From: a virus
Virus record (IMG/VR): IMGVR_UViG_3300025010_000029
Span: 1-64,000 of that record
Length of the DNA: 64,000 nt
Strand: one strand, 5' to 3'
In this document: positions 14,920 to 61,802 of the stretch, one piece after another
Position numbering within the stretch: the stretch's first letter is position 1
Layout of the letters: each line of letters opens with the position of its first letter
Notes under the pieces: model-generated
Told to the model about the DNA's origin: nothing
Database searches by the model: none
The model's input: only the letters and a program-made list of their open reading frames with translations
Translations under genes and position numbers: made by a program

Positions 14920-16014
14920 TTATGCTGTTTTTTGTTCTTCACTATTACTATTCTGGTCAAACACACAACTATCTTCAATTCTATTTACTTCATCTTGATG
15001 TGCTTTTAAATATTCATTCCAACTATCAAGTAAAATCGCCTTTCTACCTCTAAGTGAAGTATTATTCCCTGTACCACTGGTAATAAACTTTAAATACTTA
15101 GCATACATTGGCAATCTGTCTTTTTCTGCTTTTTCTTCTTGAATTTTTCTTTCAGCTTCAAAATTAAAGAACCAATTTGCGAACATCCCAATATAGTTCT
15201 CCATTTTATTATAGCCATTTTGTTTAATTAATTCTGAAGCAACCATATACAAAGAGTGTACAGTGGTTTTTTTCAACATTGCTTTGTCCACAAACTGTTT
15301 TTTATCAGGAAAACAATTTTGCAAAAAGTCCATTGTATTAATAATGGTTTCTTCTACTTTCTCAGAAACACCAGTCAAAATATTTTCTTCATAATATTTA
15401 TCAATTTCTGCATTACTTAATTTTAATTCTGCTTCAGGTTTTACTTCTATAAGTATGAATTGGCAAATTACTTCAGCATATGTCCCTCTGCTATCATTAA
15501 ATTGACAACTTTCAAAGAAATCATGATTACTTGCTAAACGTACAAACTCTCTTAATTGACCACTCATGGCATTACGTTTTTCTTGAGCTTTAAGTGGACT
15601 ACCATTTTGTAATCTCTTAAACATTCTTTCTACTTCTTCTTTACTTCCATTAATAATAACAAGATGCAATTCTCTGGAATCAAAATAGTATTTTTGTTCA
15701 GGTGTTAAATCTTTATACTTTTTACCTTTAACACTAAACCCTTTAACATCAACGTCACCTAAAACAATTTTATTATTCAAAAATTTCATTATTGCTGTAC
15801 TTCTTTGTACTCCATCAACCATCTCATATTTATCTTCTTCAATTTCACGTAAGATAATCTCAGGAACAATATAATCTCTTGCAATTGTATCAATCAACAA
15901 TTCTTGTTGCGCTTTGCCCCATACAACACCTCTTTGATAGTCTGGAGCTAGATTTGCGGCCTGTACCAAATTTAAGAAACTTCCCAATGGTAAACTTCTA
16001 GTATGTTTTTTCAT
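14920..16014 (-). CDS. DUF262 protein (ParB/Srx-like nucleotidase fold), first of two
   Basis: 364 residues. PDYQRGVVWGKAQQELLIDTI and EMVDGVQRSTAIMKFL carry the DUF262 hallmarks (YQR..VW and DGxQR), the ParB/sulfiredoxin-like NTP-binding motif also seen in the GmrSD and BrxU restriction proteins. There is no C-terminal HNH (DUF1524) domain, so this is a stand-alone N-domain with a helical tail. It has its own promoter (16063-16092). A second, divergent paralog lies at 20512-21546. Role in this element unknown; defence or anti-restriction are possibilities. Confidence 0.8.
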   Translation of the reverse strand: MKKHTRSLPLGSFLNLVQAANLAPDYQRGVVWGKAQQELLIDTIARDYIVPEIILREIEEDKYEMVDGVQRSTAIMKFLNNKIVLGDVDVKGFSVKGKKYKDLTPEQKYYFDSRELHLVIINGSKEEVERMFKRLQNGSPLKAQEKRNAMSGQLREFVRLASNHDFFESCQFNDSRGTYAEVICQFILIEVKPEAELKLSNAEIDKYYEENILTGVSEKVEETIINTMDFLQNCFPDKKQFVDKAMLKKTTVHSLYMVASELIKQNGYNKMENYIGMFANWFFNFEAERKIQEEKAEKDRLPMYAKYLKFITSGTGNNTSLRGRKAILLDSWNEYLKAHQDEVNRIEDSCVFDQNSNSEEQKTA

Positions 16015-20511: not shown

Positions 20512-21546
20512 TTATGCACTTCTCTTATTTGCTATTTTAAAAGCATTGTAAACATTTGTTAATTCCTTAATTCTAATAGCTACGTTTGCTACTTTGGTAC
20601 TTCCTGCACTAGCTCCACTCCCATATGCCCCACCAACTTGATATGTTTTGGGATTAAAAAAGTCCTTCATACATTTAGCAAAACTTTGTGGACTTAATCC
20701 TTCTTTGTCTGCTTTAACTGCCATCAAGAATATAATTGGAGTATGAACCTTTTTCAAAAATGTTTCTTTTGTGGGAAACGCTTGATTCAAATATATTGTT
20801 GTATCTCTGATTAAATCATAATTTTCTTTAGAGTATTCATTATTTTTAATATCTGCAACGAATTCAGAAATAGCTTTGCTTGATAAATCAACCGCTTCAC
20901 CATTATTAGCAACCATAGCCATAATTTGCAGTATCATTTCCTGATCAACAAAACGATTTCTTGCTTTGTCACTCATATTAACACTGGTAAAGAAGAATGG
21001 ATTTTCTGCTATCTCAGTAACAAATTCCATTATACCACTGCCAGCAGATACCCTTGTGAGTTCCATCTTTGTTAAAGATACTCCATTATTCAAGCGTAAA
21101 AACATTTCATCTCTTTCTTCATCACTCATGTTCTTGAAATAATATATAGTAATGTGTGTACTGGATATTGCATCTTGTACCTGCTCAGGAAATTCTGAAA
21201 ACTTTTTACCTGAAATATCGAATTTTTCTTCTACACCATCCATATTAGCAATATATACTTTTGGTGTATTTTTTGCTATTACAAGCTTATCAGCATATAA
21301 CTCGCCGATAGTAGTTAAACGCTGTTTCCCATCAATAACCCAAAATTCATTGTCGCCAAAATCTTGTACGAAAACTGGTAATATCGGATAATCAGTAGCT
21401 AAACTATGCACAAACAATGATTTTCTCATATCTTTTGCTTCATCCCAAACTAGATTTCTTTGAATTGCTAAATCAAAACGAAACTTATTAATGTTTTTCC
21501 CTATTGCCTTAACTGCCATTGGTCTGTTTGTTTTTGTAAATGCCAT
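20512..21546 (-). CDS. DUF262 protein, second of two
   Basis: 344 residues. RNLVWDEAKDMRKSLFVHSL and FWVIDGKQRLTTIGELY contain the DUF262 YQR/DGQQR-type motifs. It is clearly related to but divergent from 14920-16014 and likewise has no HNH domain. Both genes are expressed from their own consensus promoters, a sign of independent, perhaps constitutive, expression. Confidence 0.8.
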   Translation of the reverse strand: MAFTKTNRPMAVKAIGKNINKFRFDLAIQRNLVWDEAKDMRKSLFVHSLATDYPILPVFVQDFGDNEFWVIDGKQRLTTIGELYADKLVIAKNTPKVYIANMDGVEEKFDISGKKFSEFPEQVQDAISSTHITIYYFKNMSDEERDEMFLRLNNGVSLTKMELTRVSAGSGIMEFVTEIAENPFFFTSVNMSDKARNRFVDQEMILQIMAMVANNGEAVDLSSKAISEFVADIKNNEYSKENYDLIRDTTIYLNQAFPTKETFLKKVHTPIIFLMAVKADKEGLSPQSFAKCMKDFFNPKTYQVGGAYGSGASAGSTKVANVAIRIKELTNVYNAFKIANKRSA

Positions 21547-24228: not shown

Positions 24229-26142
24229 TCAAGCCATTTGTTCTTTTACTTCTTCTAAATTTAATCCCTGCATTTCATTAATAAAAGTATAACCATCAAT
24301 TTCTTTTCCATTATAAAATTGTAAACTTGATACATACAACAACTCAATGGCCCTTGTTACAGCTACATATGCAAGCCTTCTTTCTTCTTCAACACCTATA
24401 TTGCCTAATCCGCACCCATCAGCTTTAATGTGCGGTAATAAGCCATCACATACACCTGCAACAAACACAATTGGGAATTCTAAACCTTTGCTTCGGTGTA
24501 TCGTCATTAATTTAACTGCATTTGTTGTTTCTTTGTTATTTTCAGCTTGTTTTACTAATTCAATGTAGGCTAAGAATGATTTTACTGTTTTGAAGTTTGT
24601 TATTGACATTGATAAACTATTTAAGTTTTCCAATATGTCTTTCTGTTCTTCTACATTTAATTCTTCTTCGCCAAGCATGTGCTTATCGTATCCACCTTGA
24701 ATGCGAATATAATCAACCATTTCAGCAGGAGTTTCAAATTCTTTAAGCTTATTAATGAGAGAATAAAATTCACTACCTTTTTCTGTTCTTTTTGATTTTG
24801 ATTCAAATGGTACTGCTTCGACTAATGAAATACCTTTTTTCGTACTTCTGACAGTAACTTTATCAACAAAAGTATTGCCTAAATACCTTGTTGGAGTATT
24901 AATAACTCTTTTAAAACTATCATAATCATTATCATCAATTATTAAAGTAAGATAAGCAATTATGTCCTTAATTTCTTTCCTGTTATAAAACCCTAACCCT
25001 CCAACAATCACATATGGTATACTTGCTTTTATTAATTCATCTTCAATTGCTCTGCTTTGGCTATTTGTACGATATAATACTGTAATATCCTTTTCACTGT
25101 ATCCTTCTGCCAATAAAGCCTTCATTTCATTTACAATTGCTTCACCTTCGGCATTTTCATCAGCATAATGGTTATAAACAACATCTTTCGTTGATTTTTT
25201 ATTTGCTCTAGTGAAAATTGTTTCTAGCACTTGGCTAATATTGTTTTTAATTAAACAATTCGCTATATCAACAATACGCCCTTGACTTCTATAATTAGTG
25301 TCAAGATTGTAAATATTTGTTGTACCCCATTGCTGTCTGAAATTTACGATTAATTCTACATTGGCACTTCTAAATCCGTAAATACTTTGTTTATCATCTC
25401 CTACAACGAAGACATTTTTATTTTCACCTGCCAATAGTTTCAATATACCTTCCTGAGCTGAATTAGTATCTTGGTATTCATCAACAAGAATGAATTGATA
25501 TTTTTTTTGGTAATATGCAAGCACTTCAGGATTATCTCTAAGAAGATAATAGCATTCAATTAACATATCATCAAATTCGATAAGTTTTTCTCTAGCTTTT
25601 GCAAATTCATAACCACGATAAAAATACCTATATCTTTCAGGAGAATCTTTTTCATCTGGTAATAATAAATGTTCTTCAGGTGATATTAAATTATTCTTTT
25701 GAAAACCAACCCAACCTTGCATCTCGTTAGGTTTCTTTAATTGATCCCATTTCATAGCTTTAAGTAAATCACTGGCAATTTTTTTATACTTCCACTTAGG
25801 CCCAATTTCATACCATTGCTTAGGACTTCTTGTGTTTTTCCAATGTTCACGCAAAATACTGAAACAAATACTATGGAATGTACCAATTGTTACATTATTT
25901 GCTTCAACGCCGATTAATTCTACTAAACGCTCTTTCATTTCTTCACTTGCTTTTTTGGTGAATGTTGTAGCTAAGATGTTTTGCGGTTTAACTTTACATT
26001 GCTTAATTAAGTAAGCAATTCTACTAATTAATACTTTGGTTTTACCAGAACCAGCCCCAGCGATTACTACTGCTGGACTTTTAAAATGTTTTACGGCTAA
26101 TAGCTGATTTCGATTTAGCCCTTCTAATATTTTTTCCGACAA
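24229..26142 (-). CDS. UvrD/PcrA-type superfamily 1 DNA helicase
   Basis: 637 residues. Motifs in order: LNRNQLLAVKH (Q motif), VIAGAGSGKTKVL (Walker A), TFTKKASEEM (Ia), ILVDEYQDTN (Walker B), VVGDDKQSIYGFRSA (III), LDTNYRS (IV), VKLMTIHRSKGLEFPIVFV (V) and EEERRLAYVAVTRA (VI). All helicase residues are present. It unwinds DNA 3'-5' in repair or rolling-circle replication. Start TTG 26142 is preferred because GAGGTG lies 7 nt upstream; ATG 26157 is inside the SD region. Shorter C-terminus than PcrA (no Tudor-like tail). Confidence 0.9.
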   Translation of the reverse strand: MSEKILEGLNRNQLLAVKHFKSPAVVIAGAGSGKTKVLISRIAYLIKQCKVKPQNILATTFTKKASEEMKERLVELIGVEANNVTIGTFHSICFSILREHWKNTRSPKQWYEIGPKWKYKKIASDLLKAMKWDQLKKPNEMQGWVGFQKNNLISPEEHLLLPDEKDSPERYRYFYRGYEFAKAREKLIEFDDMLIECYYLLRDNPEVLAYYQKKYQFILVDEYQDTNSAQEGILKLLAGENKNVFVVGDDKQSIYGFRSANVELIVNFRQQWGTTNIYNLDTNYRSQGRIVDIANCLIKNNISQVLETIFTRANKKSTKDVVYNHYADENAEGEAIVNEMKALLAEGYSEKDITVLYRTNSQSRAIEDELIKASIPYVIVGGLGFYNRKEIKDIIAYLTLIIDDNDYDSFKRVINTPTRYLGNTFVDKVTVRSTKKGISLVEAVPFESKSKRTEKGSEFYSLINKLKEFETPAEMVDYIRIQGGYDKHMLGEEELNVEEQKDILENLNSLSMSITNFKTVKSFLAYIELVKQAENNKETTNAVKLMTIHRSKGLEFPIVFVAGVCDGLLPHIKADGCGLGNIGVEEERRLAYVAVTRAIELLYVSSLQFYNGKEIDGYTFINEMQGLNLEEVKEQMA

Positions 26143-26164
26143 AATATAACACCTCATTTCATTT

Positions 26165-27832: not shown

Positions 27833-29212
27833 TTACCTCCTTCTTCTTTGCGTTCCCCTAGCAAACGCCCTACATGCTCTTGAAAATTCATTCTCAAATA
27901 CCACTGTACAATCATCAGCCCTACTTACTTGGTGTACTACTTCATGTATTAATGTATCAAACAATTGATCCCAATCTTCAAGAATTTCTTTTTCAATATA
28001 TATTGTTTGTTCTTTGTGTACGCACAAGCCACTACATTTATTACCATGATCATCATGTAAATTTTCTTTGTAGCGAATTGTATACATTTCAATTTCCATT
28101 GGTGATAAATAATACTTTGTTATAAGTTTTTTAACTTCTTTAATATTGTCTTTTTCTTCTTCTTCTAATTCCCTAACTTTAACATCTTCCCCTACAACAT
28201 CACCATGATGTTGTAGGGTTTTGATTGAATCAAATATACCAAGCTTCTCAAACAATGGAATAATACCACTTACAGGTTTGTCAAGTAAATTATAGTGTCT
28301 ATAAAGCACTTGCACATCAGCAGGAGAATTGCTGGCATAACATACTTTACTTCCCCATAATTCTTTTGCTACTGCTTGCCACAATTTGATATTTTTAGTG
28401 TTAAAGTAGTAAGAATCATATGTTTCCATACAACTCTCATTAATATTTAATAATACTGATTTTATTATTTCTTTGTCAATTGTTTCAGATAAAATGTACT
28501 CCCATACATGGTTGTTAATTGTCCATATACTTACAGCGTTTCTGTCTCTATTTGATAATCTTTTACCAACCAGATTATAACCATATAAGCACTTTAATTT
28601 TAAATCAATTTCAACACCATTGATATACAATTTGTTTGCATCTTTGAGAATCGAATTCTTGGTAAACAAATGTTTATCATTATTGCTGGCACTGATAAAA
28701 CCAAAACAAGCATTAGCTTGATTGAATTCTTCCTCAGAACATTCCAATGAAAATCTACAACCTGCTATTCTATTATTACGATAGATATATAATACTAATT
28801 CTTCACTGCTTAAACTCCCAATCTCAAATTTAGCTTCAATGTCATAACCTGGGATTGAAATTTGAGCATACTTGCCACATTGGGAAGCAACTTTAAGTGA
28901 TAATTTCATACCTTCGCCATTCTCACCTGGGCTATTGTTATCTTGACGTTGCTGTGAATTGCCAATGAGTAACATTTCCAATCCAAAACCTTTGCCATAA
29001 TCTTCCCATATTGCAATACCTGTTTGTTTGTCATAATAATGATTGCCATTTTGTCCCAATGTTTGTAAAGCATAAACATAATTTTGTGCAAATTCTTTGC
29101 AAGCATGAAGAATCGTCCAATTTGACAAATAATTGTTTGAAATAATTGTTTCCTTTCTTAAAAATAATTCCATTTGTTCTTGATTGTTGTTGATATTTAA
29201 AGCTGGTGACAT
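27833..29212 (-). CDS. GHKL-type ATPase domain fused to an HEXXH metallopeptidase-like domain
   Basis: 459 residues. The N-terminal ~150 residues carry Bergerat-fold motifs: N-box HACKEFAQNYVYA (Asn44), G1 EDYGKGFG (71-77) and G2 PGENGEGMKL (95-104), as in HSP90/MutL/MORC ATPases. The C-terminus has LIHEVVHQ (HEXXH 423-427) with a downstream Glu (about 440) as possible third ligand, a gluzincin-like zinc site; the two residue sets are intact. The protein ends in RRRR. The fusion suggests an ATP-gated protease or a sensor coupled to proteolysis. Both domain calls are by motif; substrate unknown. Confidence 0.65.
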   Translation of the reverse strand: MSPALNINNNQEQMELFLRKETIISNNYLSNWTILHACKEFAQNYVYALQTLGQNGNHYYDKQTGIAIWEDYGKGFGLEMLLIGNSQQRQDNNSPGENGEGMKLSLKVASQCGKYAQISIPGYDIEAKFEIGSLSSEELVLYIYRNNRIAGCRFSLECSEEEFNQANACFGFISASNNDKHLFTKNSILKDANKLYINGVEIDLKLKCLYGYNLVGKRLSNRDRNAVSIWTINNHVWEYILSETIDKEIIKSVLLNINESCMETYDSYYFNTKNIKLWQAVAKELWGSKVCYASNSPADVQVLYRHYNLLDKPVSGIIPLFEKLGIFDSIKTLQHHGDVVGEDVKVRELEEEEKDNIKEVKKLITKYYLSPMEIEMYTIRYKENLHDDHGNKCSGLCVHKEQTIYIEKEILEDWDQLFDTLIHEVVHQVSRADDCTVVFENEFSRACRAFARGTQRRRR

Positions 29213-31369: not shown

Positions 31370-32932
31370 TTAGCTGATTAATTTTCTTAATTTCATATAT
31401 TGCAACAATTCGCTGTATTTATACATTTTTGCCCAATTTACAATATCGTTAAATGTCGTACTTTGAATATCTTGTAGTTTAACATCTCTAACAAAATTTA
31501 ACAAACACTGGCAGAATTGCAATGTAGCAACAAATGTTTCATACTTCAATGTACCTCTAAAAATTCTTAATTCAATTGTTTCTACATTTCTAATATTTAC
31601 GGTACAATAGCGGTCATGTTTATCTTCGGCATATTTTAATATTGTGTTAATGTCAGTATGGCAATATCTTTTGCACCATGTAGACAATTGGTCTTCTGTT
31701 CTACGTGAGAATAACACAAATTGATCCCAAAATACTTCTGTTACATATAACAATTTTGCAATATTATACTCTTGTTCTGTTCTAGTTTTACCGAATGCCT
31801 TTCTGTTAATGTGAACATGTAAACCACACGTTCCAGAAGTATGACTTCTATAACCTAATTTTATAGCTTTTTTCATTAACTCCTGCCATTTGAATTCTTT
31901 TAGATGTTTTTCCAATGTGGCAGGGTGACTAACAATTTCAAAACCATTGCAAGCTCTGCTATCTTTATCACAAATTGACCCATCGTATTTGGTGTAAAAT
32001 TTACTTTCATGTTTATTACCATTAACAATACTTAATAATCTTTTAGCGTTTTCATCACTGAAGCCACCTTCTCCAATTTCCAATTCTACACCAAAAAGGT
32101 CAGCTTGACTCTTTTTCATGTAAAATATTGGGTCTGGTCTATACTTATAATGATGAATAGCACTTGCCTCAAAAAAGCAGTTCATACAGTAATGTTTATT
32201 ATTAATAATATAAATATTAGATTTTATTTCCACCCAATTACCACATTCAGGACATAAATCATATTTATTTCTGCAATTATTACAAATTCTTCTACCATTA
32301 TTGTCAATTCCATTACTTTCTTTAATTAAATGATAACCACCACAACACCTACAATGAAAAAATTCTAATCTGAAACATTCTCTGCAATAATATTTGCCTT
32401 GATGTTCTGTCGCGTCACAACTTTCCGTATTTACTACAACACCACAACAACTACATGGTTTAAAATATCTATCATAGCATTTATCACAAATTGGTTTGTT
32501 ATTTTTGCCATATGTTTTGGTAACTTCAGAACGTAAGTGATAATTGTAACAATTAGAACACATTAAAAATTTCTCATTAAAACATTTTTCACAATAATCA
32601 ATATTATCCTTCCTATACATATAGTCTTCATGAATTTTTTCGCCACAACATTTACATGGTTTATAGTATCTATCATGACATTTACTACATATCATTCTGC
32701 CATTGGAATCTGTTATTAACTCTGATTTTAAAAGGTGTTTTCCACATTCACTACAATATGAATATTTTTCATTGAAGCATTTATAACATAATTTTTCTTC
32801 AGTTAAAACGTACATACTTCTAACATTTTTTTCAATTCCGCAGTCTGTACATACTTCAGTTATAACTGGGCTCCTTAGTGGTTGTAGTCTAAAACTGTAA
32901 TTCATGGTATAATTCATGTTAGATATTGTCAT
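31370..32932 (-). CDS. Zinc-finger amidoligase A
   Basis: 520 residues. Residues ~28-262 are a tandem array of CxxC zinc ribbons/LIM-like units (CTDCG, CSECG, CKCCGE, CSNCY, CSCCG, CRCCGG, CPECG). Residues ~280-500 match the putative amidoligase fold (glutamine-synthetase-like COOH-NH2 ligases): FGVELEIG at 280-287, FEIVSHPATL about 341-350, CGLHVHI 369-375 and RIFRGTLKYETF. These enzymes join a carboxylate to an amine using ATP. A paralog lies at 35115-36575, and a GATase II and a GGCT are nearby. The target may be a protein bound by the zinc array; inferred. Confidence 0.75.
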   Translation of the reverse strand: MTISNMNYTMNYSFRLQPLRSPVITEVCTDCGIEKNVRSMYVLTEEKLCYKCFNEKYSYCSECGKHLLKSELITDSNGRMICSKCHDRYYKPCKCCGEKIHEDYMYRKDNIDYCEKCFNEKFLMCSNCYNYHLRSEVTKTYGKNNKPICDKCYDRYFKPCSCCGVVVNTESCDATEHQGKYYCRECFRLEFFHCRCCGGYHLIKESNGIDNNGRRICNNCRNKYDLCPECGNWVEIKSNIYIINNKHYCMNCFFEASAIHHYKYRPDPIFYMKKSQADLFGVELEIGEGGFSDENAKRLLSIVNGNKHESKFYTKYDGSICDKDSRACNGFEIVSHPATLEKHLKEFKWQELMKKAIKLGYRSHTSGTCGLHVHINRKAFGKTRTEQEYNIAKLLYVTEVFWDQFVLFSRRTEDQLSTWCKRYCHTDINTILKYAEDKHDRYCTVNIRNVETIELRIFRGTLKYETFVATLQFCQCLLNFVRDVKLQDIQSTTFNDIVNWAKMYKYSELLQYMKLRKLIS

Positions 32933-35114: not shown

Positions 35115-36575
35115 TTATGCTAATTTTCTTTTTTGCAGGTATGCAAGTAATTCTTGGTAATTAAAATCATTAGCATAATTTATAATTGATTTCCATGTTA
35201 AAGCTTGAATATGTTGAATATCTGTATTCCTTATTATATCTAATAAGGTTTGACAAAATTGCAATGTTGCGACAAATGTTTCATATTTCAATGTACCTCT
35301 GAAAATACGTATTTCTACTGTGTTAAAAGGTTTTAAGTTTATGGCATGGAATCTTGAAGTGTCAGAATCTTTTGCTACTTCAAGCAATTCTTTTGCATCA
35401 TCTTGTGTATTATTAAGAATATTAAATCCGTATCTGTCACAATATTCCAGTTGTTTTTCTGTTCTACGTGAAAATTTAACAAACTTATTCCAATGCATTT
35501 CTACAACAAGCAATAATTTTAATATATTTAGGTCTTGTTTATCCTCAGAAATTCCAAAAGCTTCTTTATTAATATGAATATGCAGACCACATGTTTCACA
35601 ATCATGTGATTTATAATTCAAATCAATAGCTTCTTCCATTAATTCCTGCCACTTAAATTCTTTTAGGTGTTTTTCCAATGTTGCTGGATGACTAACAATT
35701 TCAAAACCATCATCTATTGAAGCATCATTCTTAATATAAATATGATCTTCATCGTTATCATTCATTATGTCAAGCAATTTACTAGCATTTTCTTTGTCAT
35801 CTCCTCCATTATCAATTTCCAGTTCAACACCAAAAAGGTCTAATTCGTTTTTGGTGTTTCTGTGAAATATAGGTTCTGGTTTATATGAATAATTATGTAT
35901 TTTACCCTTGTGTTTTGGATAGCATTTGTCACAATAATCTTCCCAGTCAATTTGATTTCTTCCATTGTTTCCATTGCACCAACAACCACAATCACTACAT
36001 CTTACTATGCTCTCATGGCATGAGTTACAAATGACTGTATTATAACTGTCACTATTACCTTGATCATCATTGTAAACATTGCCACACTCTTCACACTTAA
36101 ATGTATTATTGCTAAAACAATGTGAACAATAACAATTTTCATTATGGTCTTTTTTCTTATCATCAACGTGTGTTATATCTTCACAATGATAACAAGTAAA
36201 ATAATTATCACCATAACAATCATTACAAACAAAAGTATGTCTGTCAATTTGTGTCATATCATCTTTTAAATGGTATTGATCGCATTCTTTGCACTGTTTA
36301 TAGTTATCATTCAAACATTCTTCACAAACATAAACATACTCGTTACTTCCTCCAACATCTGTCATATCATTGGTTATAAAATATTCACCACATTCTGTAC
36401 ATTCTGTATAATTTTCTAAGCACTCTTTACATACTTTGTCACCAGAGTTTACAACTGTTAAAAAATTGTCAAATTTCCTGTTTCCACATTCTTCACATAC
36501 ACCAATAGCAAATAATTTAAGCTCTGTATGTCTTTGAATTATGTTTTTGCTGGGAATTAATTTCTTGTATTTCAT
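35115..36575 (-). CDS. Zinc-finger amidoligase B
   Basis: 486 residues from ATG 36575 (GGAGGTTGTGTCTA upstream; an earlier ATG at 36584 is too close to the SD). Same layout as amidoligase A: a long N-terminal run of CxxC ribbons (CEECGNR, CKECLEN, CTECGEY, CKECDQY, CEECGNV, CSDCGCW), then LFGVELEIDNGG, GFEIVSHPATLEKHLKEF, CGLHIHI and RIFRGTLKYETF. The stretch FEIVSHPATLEKHLKEFKWQ is identical to A, so the two arose by duplication and kept the catalytic half more strictly than the finger half. Confidence 0.75.
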   Translation of the reverse strand: MKYKKLIPSKNIIQRHTELKLFAIGVCEECGNRKFDNFLTVVNSGDKVCKECLENYTECTECGEYFITNDMTDVGGSNEYVYVCEECLNDNYKQCKECDQYHLKDDMTQIDRHTFVCNDCYGDNYFTCYHCEDITHVDDKKKDHNENCYCSHCFSNNTFKCEECGNVYNDDQGNSDSYNTVICNSCHESIVRCSDCGCWCNGNNGRNQIDWEDYCDKCYPKHKGKIHNYSYKPEPIFHRNTKNELDLFGVELEIDNGGDDKENASKLLDIMNDNDEDHIYIKNDASIDDGFEIVSHPATLEKHLKEFKWQELMEEAIDLNYKSHDCETCGLHIHINKEAFGISEDKQDLNILKLLLVVEMHWNKFVKFSRRTEKQLEYCDRYGFNILNNTQDDAKELLEVAKDSDTSRFHAINLKPFNTVEIRIFRGTLKYETFVATLQFCQTLLDIIRNTDIQHIQALTWKSIINYANDFNYQELLAYLQKRKLA

Positions 36576-36626
36576 TAGACACAACCTCCTGTTATATTGA
36601 TATTTTAAATTTACAGACTTTTTAAA

Positions 36627-48245: not shown

Positions 48246-48968
48246 TTAATCATTTAATAAATATTCTCTAATTTCATCTACTGTAAGAACGATAAACTTT
48301 AAACTTTCCTTTTTTTCTACAATACCATTTTCATCATAATATTTATACTCTTTATTATTCTTCTTAACACTTTCTAACACTTTGGCTTTCTTCTTATCAC
48401 TGTTGCAGACTATTAGTATATGAGGAAATCTGTTTACCCTATTAAACCAATATTCATTTTCATAATCTCTATTTTTAAATATCTCATTATAATTAATAAC
48501 TTTCATAAATTCATTTTTACTCTCTACTCTATCGCTTTCAATTATAAAATACATATATTCATTATTAACATAATTTTTAAATCCAATAATACCGTCTGGT
48601 CTTCTACCACAATCCATAACATATTCTTTTTTCATATCTGAATACTTATAATACTTATATTCTTTTTCAACCATTTTTAACAAATAAAGAAAACCCCAAT
48701 TTCTATTAATATCGTGTTCAAGAAACTTCGGTAATTTATCTACATAAAACTTATTACATTCATTTATATCTAATCTAATGCTACTAATTTTCTTTCTACC
48801 TACTAACTTCCTTAACCTCTCTCTACACTTAATTATGCCATATTTAATTGAAGAAAAAAACAATAAATATACCTGTTCTGTTGTCAATACTTCATACTCT
48901 TCAATGGTTTCAACAATCAATTTATCTCGGTAATAACCTTTTTTTCTGGTATTCATCTTGTTGTCCAT
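48246..48968 (-). CDS. Replication-relaxation family protein
   Basis: 240 residues from ATG 48968, 10 nt behind AAAGGA. The N-terminal winged-helix segment LTTEQVYLLFFSSIKYGIIK and RERLRKLVGRKKISSIRL, followed by a beta-rich core (CGRRPDGIIGFKN, YFIIESDR), matches the Replic_Relax family found next to FtsK-like ATPases on Gram-positive plasmids and integrative elements. Its frame overlaps the FtsK gene's end by 47 nt, so translation is coupled. Probably DNA-binding; precise role in the family is not established. Confidence 0.7.
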   Translation of the reverse strand: MDNKMNTRKKGYYRDKLIVETIEEYEVLTTEQVYLLFFSSIKYGIIKCRERLRKLVGRKKISSIRLDINECNKFYVDKLPKFLEHDINRNWGFLYLLKMVEKEYKYYKYSDMKKEYVMDCGRRPDGIIGFKNYVNNEYMYFIIESDRVESKNEFMKVINYNEIFKNRDYENEYWFNRVNRFPHILIVCNSDKKKAKVLESVKKNNKEYKYYDENGIVEKKESLKFIVLTVDEIREYLLND

Positions 48969-50316
48969 GTTGAAGGAGTCCTTTATTATTTCCACTGATT
49001 TGTTCATTAATTATATCATCACCTTTATAATAATAGCTTGCATATGTTTTTTTCTTTGCTTCGCCATACACCATTGCCCTTTCTCTGGCTGTCTCTGAAT
49101 CTAAATATAAAGCCTGTGCTTCAACTAAATTACCTTTATATAATGATAATAACCTACCATCGGCATCTGACAAATAAAACGCATCTGTACTGTTTAACAC
49201 TGTTTGAGAATGCCCTCTATCAGCACAACGAAAACATATCCTTCCTATAAGATTGTTCTTAATTATGGGGCTAATTAAATCTTTATCTGGTCTTTGCATA
49301 CATATTATAAGATGTATTCCTACTTTACGTGCTTGTTGACTTAATTCTGCTATTGTACCTTGTAACATGTTTCTGATTCTCTTTTCTTCTTTTGTATGGT
49401 ATTTCCCAGGTGCGGTAAAAGCAAATTCATCAATAAATAAAACCATATATGGCAATTTATTCTGTGGATATTTTACATTATATTTAACAATATCTAAACC
49501 AAAGTCAGCTAAATAATACTTCCTCTTAATCATTTCCTGTTTAAGAAATAATATTATCTTTAATGCTTCTTCTATCTCACTAGCAAACACAGCACAATCT
49601 TTAACATGAATAAAATCTATTAAAGCTAAATCAATAACAAATAATAATACATTTGGATTCTGTAGCAATGCATCAATCCATGATTTGATTAATACTGTCT
49701 TTCCTGAACCAGTATATCCAGCAATAAGGTAATGCACAACATTGGTTAACTCTATTATATTTAAACCTCTTTGATTAACTCCAAGTGGCATTGGAAGTAC
49801 ATAATTATCTAAATATTCTATTGTGTTGAAGCTATATTTTACTTTACTTGGTATCACACCCTTAAATACATCAATAACTAATACGCCTTTACTTTCTTTA
49901 ACATCAACTAATGCTGTTAAACCATCTGCAAAATATTTTCTTTTGTTAATGTAATCTTTATATAATAAACCTCTTGGCAATTGCCATATAGTAGTAAAAT
50001 GATTTGCATTATTTACATCTTTAATTGTTTCTAAATGCACAGCGTAATCGCCTTTATTCTTATTGGTCAATCCAATTTCATACATGATATTCTCAATCTC
50101 AGATTCTAATGTTCTACTTTTCCTAGTACGTATCATTTTCTTAATTGTAACTCTTAATTCTTCTGGTTTTTTCTTCTTTAATGGCTCATAGCCCCATTGT
50201 TGAAGTGCTTGCTTTGTCACCTGTTTTACTACTTCTTTACATAACTTTTTTAATTTTTTAAATTTAGATTCTTTACATACTTCTCCAGCTATTCTTTTTT
50301 GTTCCAATTCAACCAC
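48922..50316 (-). CDS. FtsK/SpoIIIE-type DNA translocase (TcpA-like)
   Basis: 464 residues. Walker A HYLIAGYTGSGKTVLIKS (GYTGSGKT 200-207), Walker B MVLFIDEFAF and the downstream RKVGIHLIICMQRPDKDLIS, then NLIGRICFRCADRGHSQTVL identify the FtsK motor. No N-terminal membrane segments and no gamma domain, so this is the soluble coupling-type motor of plasmids and integrative elements. It would pump DNA during transfer or segregation. TTG 50307, 5 nt behind AGGTGG, is an alternative start. Confidence 0.85.
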   Translation of the reverse strand: MVELEQKRIAGEVCKESKFKKLKKLCKEVVKQVTKQALQQWGYEPLKKKKPEELRVTIKKMIRTRKSRTLESEIENIMYEIGLTNKNKGDYAVHLETIKDVNNANHFTTIWQLPRGLLYKDYINKRKYFADGLTALVDVKESKGVLVIDVFKGVIPSKVKYSFNTIEYLDNYVLPMPLGVNQRGLNIIELTNVVHYLIAGYTGSGKTVLIKSWIDALLQNPNVLLFVIDLALIDFIHVKDCAVFASEIEEALKIILFLKQEMIKRKYYLADFGLDIVKYNVKYPQNKLPYMVLFIDEFAFTAPGKYHTKEEKRIRNMLQGTIAELSQQARKVGIHLIICMQRPDKDLISPIIKNNLIGRICFRCADRGHSQTVLNSTDAFYLSDADGRLLSLYKGNLVEAQALYLDSETARERAMVYGEAKKKTYASYYYKGDDIINEQISGNNKGLLQHGQQDEYQKKRLLPR

Positions 50317-60080: not shown

Positions 60081-61802
60081 TTATAAGCTACTTAATACTC
60101 TGCCTCTGATATCTGCTAAACTATCATCTCTTAATAATTTGCCATCAACAAATACTTCTTCCAGTAAATCATCTGCTCTAAATAGAGCTTGTTGTGCAAT
60201 TGATAATCCATCAATATATGTTATTTCATTTGTTGTTGAATCTTGAAGTACAACAACTCTGCCTTTTTGTGATTTTTTGATTTTGTCGAGATCAGTTTTC
60301 GGATTTTTAAAAATCAGTTTTTCTTTTCCATTTATTACTACGTGTGTTGCTTTAATAGCGATCATAAATGTATCTCTACTATAATAACCTAGTGAATATG
60401 AACCTACACCAAATATAACATTTTCACTAGAAAATCCTTTTTGTTCTAGTTTTTTAAATATTTCTTCTGCTCTTTCTGGATTGATGCTGTCACCATATAT
60501 AAGTGAAATATGTGAATCTAATACTTTATATCCTTTAGAATTAATTGTACCACCAAATATATCCCATAGTGATTCTATTGAACCTTTTTGTTCTATAGTC
60601 AATTCTACTTCTTCACAACTTATTACCTGTGTATAATCAATATAATAATATTGTTTATCATACCTGTTCCATTCAAATTCGACAATTATTTTATATATTT
60701 TATTATTATATTTGAAATACCCTTCATTTTTATCTACTCCATATTCTCCATGAGGTGTTTCATCTCTTACTTCTTCTTCTAAATATTCTTTCATCGTTTT
60801 AATACAATCATCTAATGTTTTACAATATTTATCATTTGTAAAATCTTCAACAATCACATTACCACAAATAATGTCAACTGGATTGCCCGTATCTGGTCTT
60901 ACGACCAGTTTACCATTTCTATTCATTATAATTTCTTTTAATTTTGGAATAATATTACCAATAACATTCCAATAATCATATCCATCTGATACAATACTAA
61001 CAATACCTTCAGGTACGATTTCAGTAATCATTTTTTTATAATATTTTAAATCATCCTCATATTGGCATTGAATCGAATGCTCAGAAGCGAGTACGCTTGA
61101 AAATACTAGCTCTTCTTCAACATTGGCATTATAGTAATGCTCTAAATACTGAGTGCTTGGTATAGTATCTGAGCCTGTGAAATATAGTAAATGTCCTGCC
61201 CCTGTTGTTATTGCATCTTCATTGCAACCCATTCCTCTATAACTGAAGTTGTGACATTGCCATTTAATATGTTCTTTACTATCGCATGTTTTTTCAGCCC
61301 ATTTTTCACATATATCTCTATATTTTTTTACTATTGTTGTAGATGTTATTACTTTCCACATTGAAACACTTATAAGTGTTTCTAAATAATTTGTTAACCA
61401 ATGAAATTCATTATTAGTATTTTCAATTGTAAACAATGGTGTTTTAATTGGTGCTAAAGTACCTTCTTTAAGAGCACGTATTTTAATTGGCAAATACCCT
61501 AAATCATGTAATGCTTCAATATGCTTAGTATCTGCACAATTATCCCCTAAAGTGTATTTAATAATTCTTTTATATTCTGTAATTACTTCTTCTTTGTTTC
61601 TACTAAAGAAATTTTCATTAAAGTATTCAATCAAATATTCTTTTATAAAACCTTGCAAACCAAAGAATACTACTTCATTAATATCTTTTAATCTTGTCCC
61701 TCTTGGAGTAAATGTAGAATATGTTTTCTCAATTCCTTTTTCAGTCATAATTCTGTGAGATATTTTATAACAATCTACTAATAACATTGGATTATATTTC
61801 AT
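60081..61802 (-). CDS. nadV: Nicotinamide phosphoribosyltransferase (NAMPT/NadV)
   Basis: 573 residues, longer than the usual ~470-490. Signatures: MLLVDCYKISHRIMTEKGIE, TPRGTR, FSYRGMG (FxxRG), RPDTGNPVDI and the phosphate loop YGDSINPE, then FGVGSYSLGYYSRDTFMIAI. Extra length lies in an Asp/Glu/Tyr-rich insertion (about residues 315-400) between RPDTGNP and GSIESLWDIFGGT. It makes NMN from nicotinamide and PRPP, feeding the adenylyltransferase at 56373-56948. Confidence 0.9.
   Translation of the reverse strand: MKYNPMLLVDCYKISHRIMTEKGIEKTYSTFTPRGTRLKDINEVVFFGLQGFIKEYLIEYFNENFFSRNKEEVITEYKRIIKYTLGDNCADTKHIEALHDLGYLPIKIRALKEGTLAPIKTPLFTIENTNNEFHWLTNYLETLISVSMWKVITSTTIVKKYRDICEKWAEKTCDSKEHIKWQCHNFSYRGMGCNEDAITTGAGHLLYFTGSDTIPSTQYLEHYYNANVEEELVFSSVLASEHSIQCQYEDDLKYYKKMITEIVPEGIVSIVSDGYDYWNVIGNIIPKLKEIIMNRNGKLVVRPDTGNPVDIICGNVIVEDFTNDKYCKTLDDCIKTMKEYLEEEVRDETPHGEYGVDKNEGYFKYNNKIYKIIVEFEWNRYDKQYYYIDYTQVISCEEVELTIEQKGSIESLWDIFGGTINSKGYKVLDSHISLIYGDSINPERAEEIFKKLEQKGFSSENVIFGVGSYSLGYYSRDTFMIAIKATHVVINGKEKLIFKNPKTDLDKIKKSQKGRVVVLQDSTTNEITYIDGLSIAQQALFRADDLLEEVFVDGKLLRDDSLADIRGRVLSSL

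Follow-up and report, generated by a model that had tools for sequence, protein, structure and literature searches.

A 459-residue protein encoded on the minus strand at positions 27833 to 29212 of the window, by which we mean the whole 64,000-nucleotide stretch analysed here from a 165.7 kb virus record, joins a GHKL ATPase, an S5-like middle segment of the Hsp90/MutL type and a SPRTN/Wss1-like zincin. Sequence comparison and structure prediction together show that this architecture is kept as one unit. The original prediction had given the gene the same coordinates, to which we add the strand, and had proposed an ATP-gated protease; the anatomical part of that proposal stands, in that the predicted structure combines the full ATPase machinery with a complete-looking zincin. 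With a probability of roughly 40%, we read the protein as an ATP-gated clamp-protease for clearing proteins from DNA, its proteolytic activity and its substrate both being putative.

A GHKL ATPase and an S5-like segment followed by a zincin

The gene starts with an ATG at 29212 that has AAGGAGG, a strong ribosome-binding site, 9 bases ahead of it, and AlphaFold modelled the full-length protein confidently (mean pLDDT 86.7). All features of the gene given below lie, as it does, on the minus strand. The GHKL/Bergerat ATPase domain occupies about residues 16-190 (28643..29167), with structural matches to TRAP1 and GyrB and a match to the function-unknown phage family phrog_6077 (window residues 21-274, profile positions 5-264 of 366, E 1.9e-19), to which the zincin is additional. 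We scored conservation in A3, an alignment of 25 rows that includes the window protein and whose members are 15-47% identical to it. The N-box (E40 to N44, 29081..29095) retains E40 in 25/25 rows and N44 in 24/25, and the G2 box (G96xxG99-E100-G101-x-K103, 28904..28927) retains E100, G101 and K103 in every row; the G1 box (D71-x-G73-x-G75, 28988..29002) has Asp71 in 17/25 rows and Asn or Ser in the remaining eight. The three boxes had been described as intact, and all are present on a predicted N-domain with a Bergerat fold, which together mark the GHKL (Bergerat) ATPase superfamily; an N-domain lacking that fold was looked for and not seen. Composition shuffles contained the N-box, G1 and G2 jointly in 0 of 20,000 cases.

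A Foldseek search with the full-length model returned TRAP1/Hsp90 at 2e-8, and VIA-align matched the TRAP1 NTD-middle region to window protein residues 21-334 (Z 11.8, rmsd 6.8 over 275 residues) and GyrB/ParE at about Z 11. At its N-terminus the A3 profile matched Hsp90 (1.7e-6) and topoisomerase VI-B (1.5e-5), and also MutL and MORC2. The protein had been likened to MORC-type ATPases, and MORC2 was indeed matched at the N-terminus (0.0035); however, this match is confined to A3 profile positions 23-86 and is not specific, as Hsp90 and topoisomerase VI-B match better and Hsp90 and GyrB are the top structural matches. The sequence match, being restricted to the motif region, leaves membership in MORC doubtful. 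Membership in T4 RIIA is not supported by sequence profile, since hhalign aligned 66 columns over the GHKL motifs only, with a probability of 34%.

The predicted middle segment, about residues 191-335 (28208..28642), resembles S5 and Hsp90-M domains: the structural alignment with TRAP1 extends to residue 334, and R224 of the N221-R-D-R224 motif (28541..28552) is constant, both in A3 (25/25) and in the 48/48 modules aligned once stand-alone and tandem modules are added. The S5 domain of GHKL ATPases supplies a basic finger residue (PMC2292703), and R224 is a candidate for the ATPase arginine finger. In Hsp90/TRAP1, MutL, GyrB, MORC and paraMORC, a GHKL ATPase precedes an S5-type segment bearing a conserved basic residue, a layout that the window protein probably shares, but none of them matched over the full length, and the effector of the window family is a protease. 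Within this layout, paraMORC3 and MLH proteins carry C-terminal nucleases (PMC2292703). The full N-M-C architecture of Hsp90, with its C-terminal dimerisation domain, does not apply to the window protein, whose C-terminal domain is a zincin and whose HtpG profile match spans the ATPase domain only.

Given that the whole-model structural list was taken up by Hsp90 and GyrB, the zincin was folded and searched separately. Residues 340-459 (27836..28195) modelled alone reached a pLDDT of 95.6 and matched the folds of SPRTN (Z 9.3, rmsd 3.2 over 95), Wss1 (Z 9.0, 3.3 over 108), selecase (Z 8.5) and abylysin (Z 8.2). The sequence profile of the domain matched proabylysin (9e-4), SPRTN (0.005) and yeast Wss1 (0.037), and the C-terminus of the A3 profile matched Wss1 (0.0026) and also proabylysin. 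SPRTN/Wss1 and the minigluzincins abylysin and selecase, with which it shares the zincin fold and HEXXH, are the best matches of the C-terminal domain in both sequence and fold. For the SprT/SPRTN-Wss1 family the likeness is one of fold, as the window protein scores 18.4 bits with the Pfam SprT-like model, below the curated cut-off of 25.6. We know of no SPRTN, Wss1 or minigluzincin protein that carries a GHKL ATPase, and no separate DNA-binding domain was seen in the window protein.

An HEXXH motif by itself arises in 2.6% of composition shuffles and is for that reason weak evidence, so the peptidase claim needed more. We judged the HEVVH at residues 423-427 (27932..27946), which would supply zinc ligands and the catalytic Glu, to be real because HEXXH is conserved in 24/25 members at the low identities of A3 (H423 in 24/25 rows, E424 and H427 in 25/25). 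The motif falls within the helix that forms the active site (residues 414-430), in a zincin domain predicted with confidence, as in a zincin metallopeptidase; a buried helix without a zinc site was looked for and not seen, and a chance motif match is rejected by conservation and structure. That the zinc motif is intact was thus borne out, whereas the downstream Glu that had been predicted alongside it was not: E440 and E442 vary freely in A3, so that a Glu as third zinc ligand was rejected, and the gluzincin label is not supported because the conserved residue is instead D434 (27911..27913; 24/25, Asn in one row). In the HMM alignment with proabylysin, this Asp stands opposite a His, and the third zinc ligand of SPRTN, unlike the candidate in the window family, is a His (PMC7213743). 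The Asp, or once Asn, of this column speaks against a His ligand like that of SPRTN. On these grounds D434 is the likelier third ligand, a role we assign from sequence.

Distribution and evolution of the fusion

With tblastn, full-length fusions were found in two cultured phages, Exiguobacterium phage vB_EalM-132 (30% identity to the window protein) and Moorella phage MTATph1 (25%), and ATPases of the stand-alone form in phages of Vibrio, Edwardsiella, Luteibacter and Streptococcus. Scans of IMG/VR with the single protein as query returned no relatives; a scan with an alignment of the three fusions returned 26 loci. The C-terminal domain is present at every one of the 26, with HEXXH in 25 of them and EELAH in L039. 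One scan of genome contigs added loci from Desulfofundulus, Bacillota, Paceibacterota, Pacearchaeota (a locus truncated by its contig end), Woesearchaeota and Clostridia. A sample of 291 genomes from the same class as the Clostridia locus contained two further fusions and one stand-alone-like ATPase gene (L064, in the 5.5 Mb genome G185) that is broken by an in-frame TGA. Collectively, these searches define the fusion as a conserved family of many unrelated viruses, present also in a small number of bacteria and archaea. Beyond the zincin, an additional segment is present in L025, L027, L029, L034 and L062, and the C-termini of two aligned members resemble MazE/AbrB-like Pfam models (best E 0.0037), a tail that is possibly DNA-binding.

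No model in Pfam, PHROGs or the other libraries searched spans both halves, and searches among openly licensed literature found no paper on a GHKL-zincin fusion. The claim that this is not a standard family is thus correct as regards the fusion, unnamed in every library searched, but the ATPase half is already known as the phage family phrog_6077. Members of phrog_6077 have the same ATPase and middle segment but stop before the zincin, and the eight examined (L005-L012) all lack the G1 Asp. The best BFVD match, A0A3G3BWI8 (437 aa, 29% identity, TM 0.70), fits the Exiguobacterium phage fusion in length and identity; stand-alone phage proteins follow it, and then RIIA proteins, in matches that do not locate the aligned part. 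The full-length model also matched A0A3Q8Q6V3 of Sulfolobales Beppu filamentous phage 1, a 595 aa "putative structural protein", at 9e-14.

Both halves are under purifying selection, with dN/dS of about 0.1-0.3 in the ATPase and zincin parts alike for the closest pairs. In a tree inferred by maximum likelihood from the ATPase and middle parts, the window protein groups with IMG/VR locus L014 (100/100) and then with an SPO1-like group (99/99), while the stand-alone proteins nest among the fusions and require two label changes. This tree is read more simply as loss of the zincin, although that is unproved because the root was not inferred. Supply of the zincin in trans was rejected for the stand-alone ATPases, since no HEXXH ORF lies within about 4 kb of them in the nine loci checked. 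The G1 Asp is mostly kept in fusions, and several fusions in the stand-alones' region of the tree also lack it.

How common the stand-alone form is in phages bears on whether the zincin cuts other proteins at all: 100 GenBank phage records match family member L031, but in only two does the match reach 80% of its length or more. Such a pattern could arise if the ATPase were the working part and the zincin cut only its own chain or no longer cut, as could the degenerate site of L039 (6028-7350), which has EELAH for HEXXH and Asn in the Asp434 column and whose zinc site is probably changed or lost. ArdC is a further precedent, in that its protease activity is not needed for antirestriction (PMC7213743). 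However, an active site kept in 24/25 diverged members and a zincin under purifying selection make a self-processing or merely structural zincin improbable.

Chains with two ATPase modules and one zincin occur on Clostridia, Paceibacterota and Bacillota contigs. In the tree, the N-halves of the Clostridia and Paceibacterota chains pair together and so do their C-halves, as one duplication predicts, and the two-to-one composition of these chains suggests dimeric clamp action.

Genomic neighbourhood and possible roles

The nearest recognisable partner of the window gene is a UvrD/PcrA-family helicase (24229..26157, minus strand; PF00580, E 1e-80), which the linkage test marks as a likely functional partner. 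Of the fusion-bearing records, 10/29 contain a UvrD match, which in nine of the ten is on the fusion's strand and no more than about 4 kb away. When each lineage was represented by a single record, the linkage gave a Fisher p of 1.7e-4, a value that overstates the evidence because UvrD was picked after neighbour clustering; linkage to DnaB (p 0.67) or terminase (p 0.94) was rejected by the same test. In the majority of phage records no UvrD was matched, and in the Moorella phage UvrD is about 41 kb from the fusion. In SPO1-like members the gene shares a block with genes for 5'-3' exonuclease, ligase, a sigma factor and nucleoside kinase. Bacterial chromosomal copies sit among housekeeping genes: the double-ATPase chain of Clostridia adjoins genes that we take, from reading their translations, to be prfB- and rho-like, and that of Paceibacterota lies among genes presumed on the same basis to be ftsZ-, ftsA-, mraZ- and rsmH-like.

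Elsewhere in the window, 31370-32932 and 35115-36584 encode related proteins, apparently paralogues within one phage, that are rich in CxxC repeats of zinc-ribbon-like type and have an amidoligase-like domain at the C-terminus (PF12224 in the former). Positions 60081-61802 encode a nicotinamide phosphoribosyltransferase of NAD+ salvage (phrog_448, E 2e-188) and 48922-50316 an FtsK/SpoIIIE-like protein (phrog_1358, E 6e-58). Two phrog_2598 members lie at 14920-16014 and 20512-21546, and in L014 and L026 relatives of the latter lie close to the fusion.

Given that Hsp90/TRAP1 is the top structural match and that 14/25 members match the N-terminal ATPase model of sacsin, a protein described as a chaperone (PMC3710099), we considered whether an Hsp90-like ATPase could unfold or hold clients for the zincin, in quality control or in the processing of phage structural proteins. 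The neighbourhood speaks against this, with linkage to UvrD and none to terminase, and many relatives, the cellular ones included, lie outside structural modules. Stand-alone members moreover do without the zincin, and we regard a chaperone-protease as clearly unlikely.

The main rival, and still somewhat unlikely in our assessment, is a counter-defence protease akin to T4 RIIA, whose ATPase would grip or sense a host defence complex for the zincin to cut. Among BFVD matches, structures predicted for RIIA proteins of phages rank prominently behind the phrog_6077 group (E about 1e-7), the zincin is the most frequent domain of the polyvalent conflict proteins of phages and plasmids (PMC5512222), and distribution among Clostridia genomes is patchy. 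T4 RIIA is, like the window protein, a phage GHKL protein, and has a variable C-terminal part (PMC7824862); yet the sequence similarity between them is limited to the GHKL motifs, and the T4 RIIA sequence has no HEXXH. PADLOC returned TmtA ATPase-motif matches alone and no system, so that membership in a defence system was rejected. Counter-defence also makes little sense for the chromosomal copies, because they sit among housekeeping genes. An attack on host defence or competition with other phages, as originally suggested, finds no direct support; the gene is linked to UvrD, and its protease half resembles proteases that act on DNA-bound proteins.

A proposed ATP-gated clamp-protease on DNA

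GHKL-S5 proteins such as Hsp90, MutL and GyrB dimerise or close upon ATP binding. In the clamp-protease that we favour, ATP binding would make two copies close on each other and trap DNA or a protein bound to it. That closure, in which R224 would act as arginine finger, would bring the zincin onto the trapped protein for cleavage, and ATP hydrolysis would reopen the clamp. Its likely job would be to free the phage genome, while it is replicated or repaired, of protein roadblocks, crosslinks or host DNA-binding proteins. MutL recruits UvrD, and by analogy the window protein may cooperate with the neighbouring UvrD-family helicase. In phages with the ATPase half alone, the clamp would act without cutting.

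This model draws support from the profiles and folds, which match Hsp90-type clamps in one half and SPRTN/Wss1 in the other, from catalytic residues conserved in very diverged members with low dN/dS in both halves, and from the UvrD linkage and the two-ATPase chains. It is weakened by the loss of the G1 Asp in 8/25 rows and the EELAH of L039, and by a UvrD test that was post hoc, with UvrD mostly absent and distant in the Moorella phage. ArdC, the closest mechanistic analogue, weakens it further: it is a mobile-element protein with a C-terminal SPRTN-like metalloprotease, its partner is a ssDNA-binding domain without an ATPase (PMC7213743), and it dispenses with protease activity in antirestriction. 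More doubtful than the clamp-protease itself is a wider reading, in which an undescribed phage, bacterial and archaeal family would use a GHKL clamp to gate a SPRTN/Wss1-like protease that strips DNA, with phrog_6077 as its protease-less derivative and double-ATPase chains as its cellular versions.

GHKL-S5 clamps drive topoisomerases, mismatch repair and chaperones. The ATPase family, phrog_6077, was known, whereas its fusion with a zincin has no description in the literature and libraries searched; the GHKL-S5-plus-effector layout here carries a protease where nucleases are known. Such a conserved GHKL-protease pairing would bring a new effector to these clamps and offer a compact model for ATP-controlled proteolysis on DNA. 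It also gives a testable handle on phrog_6077, which is found in phages of laboratory E. coli and Pseudomonas.
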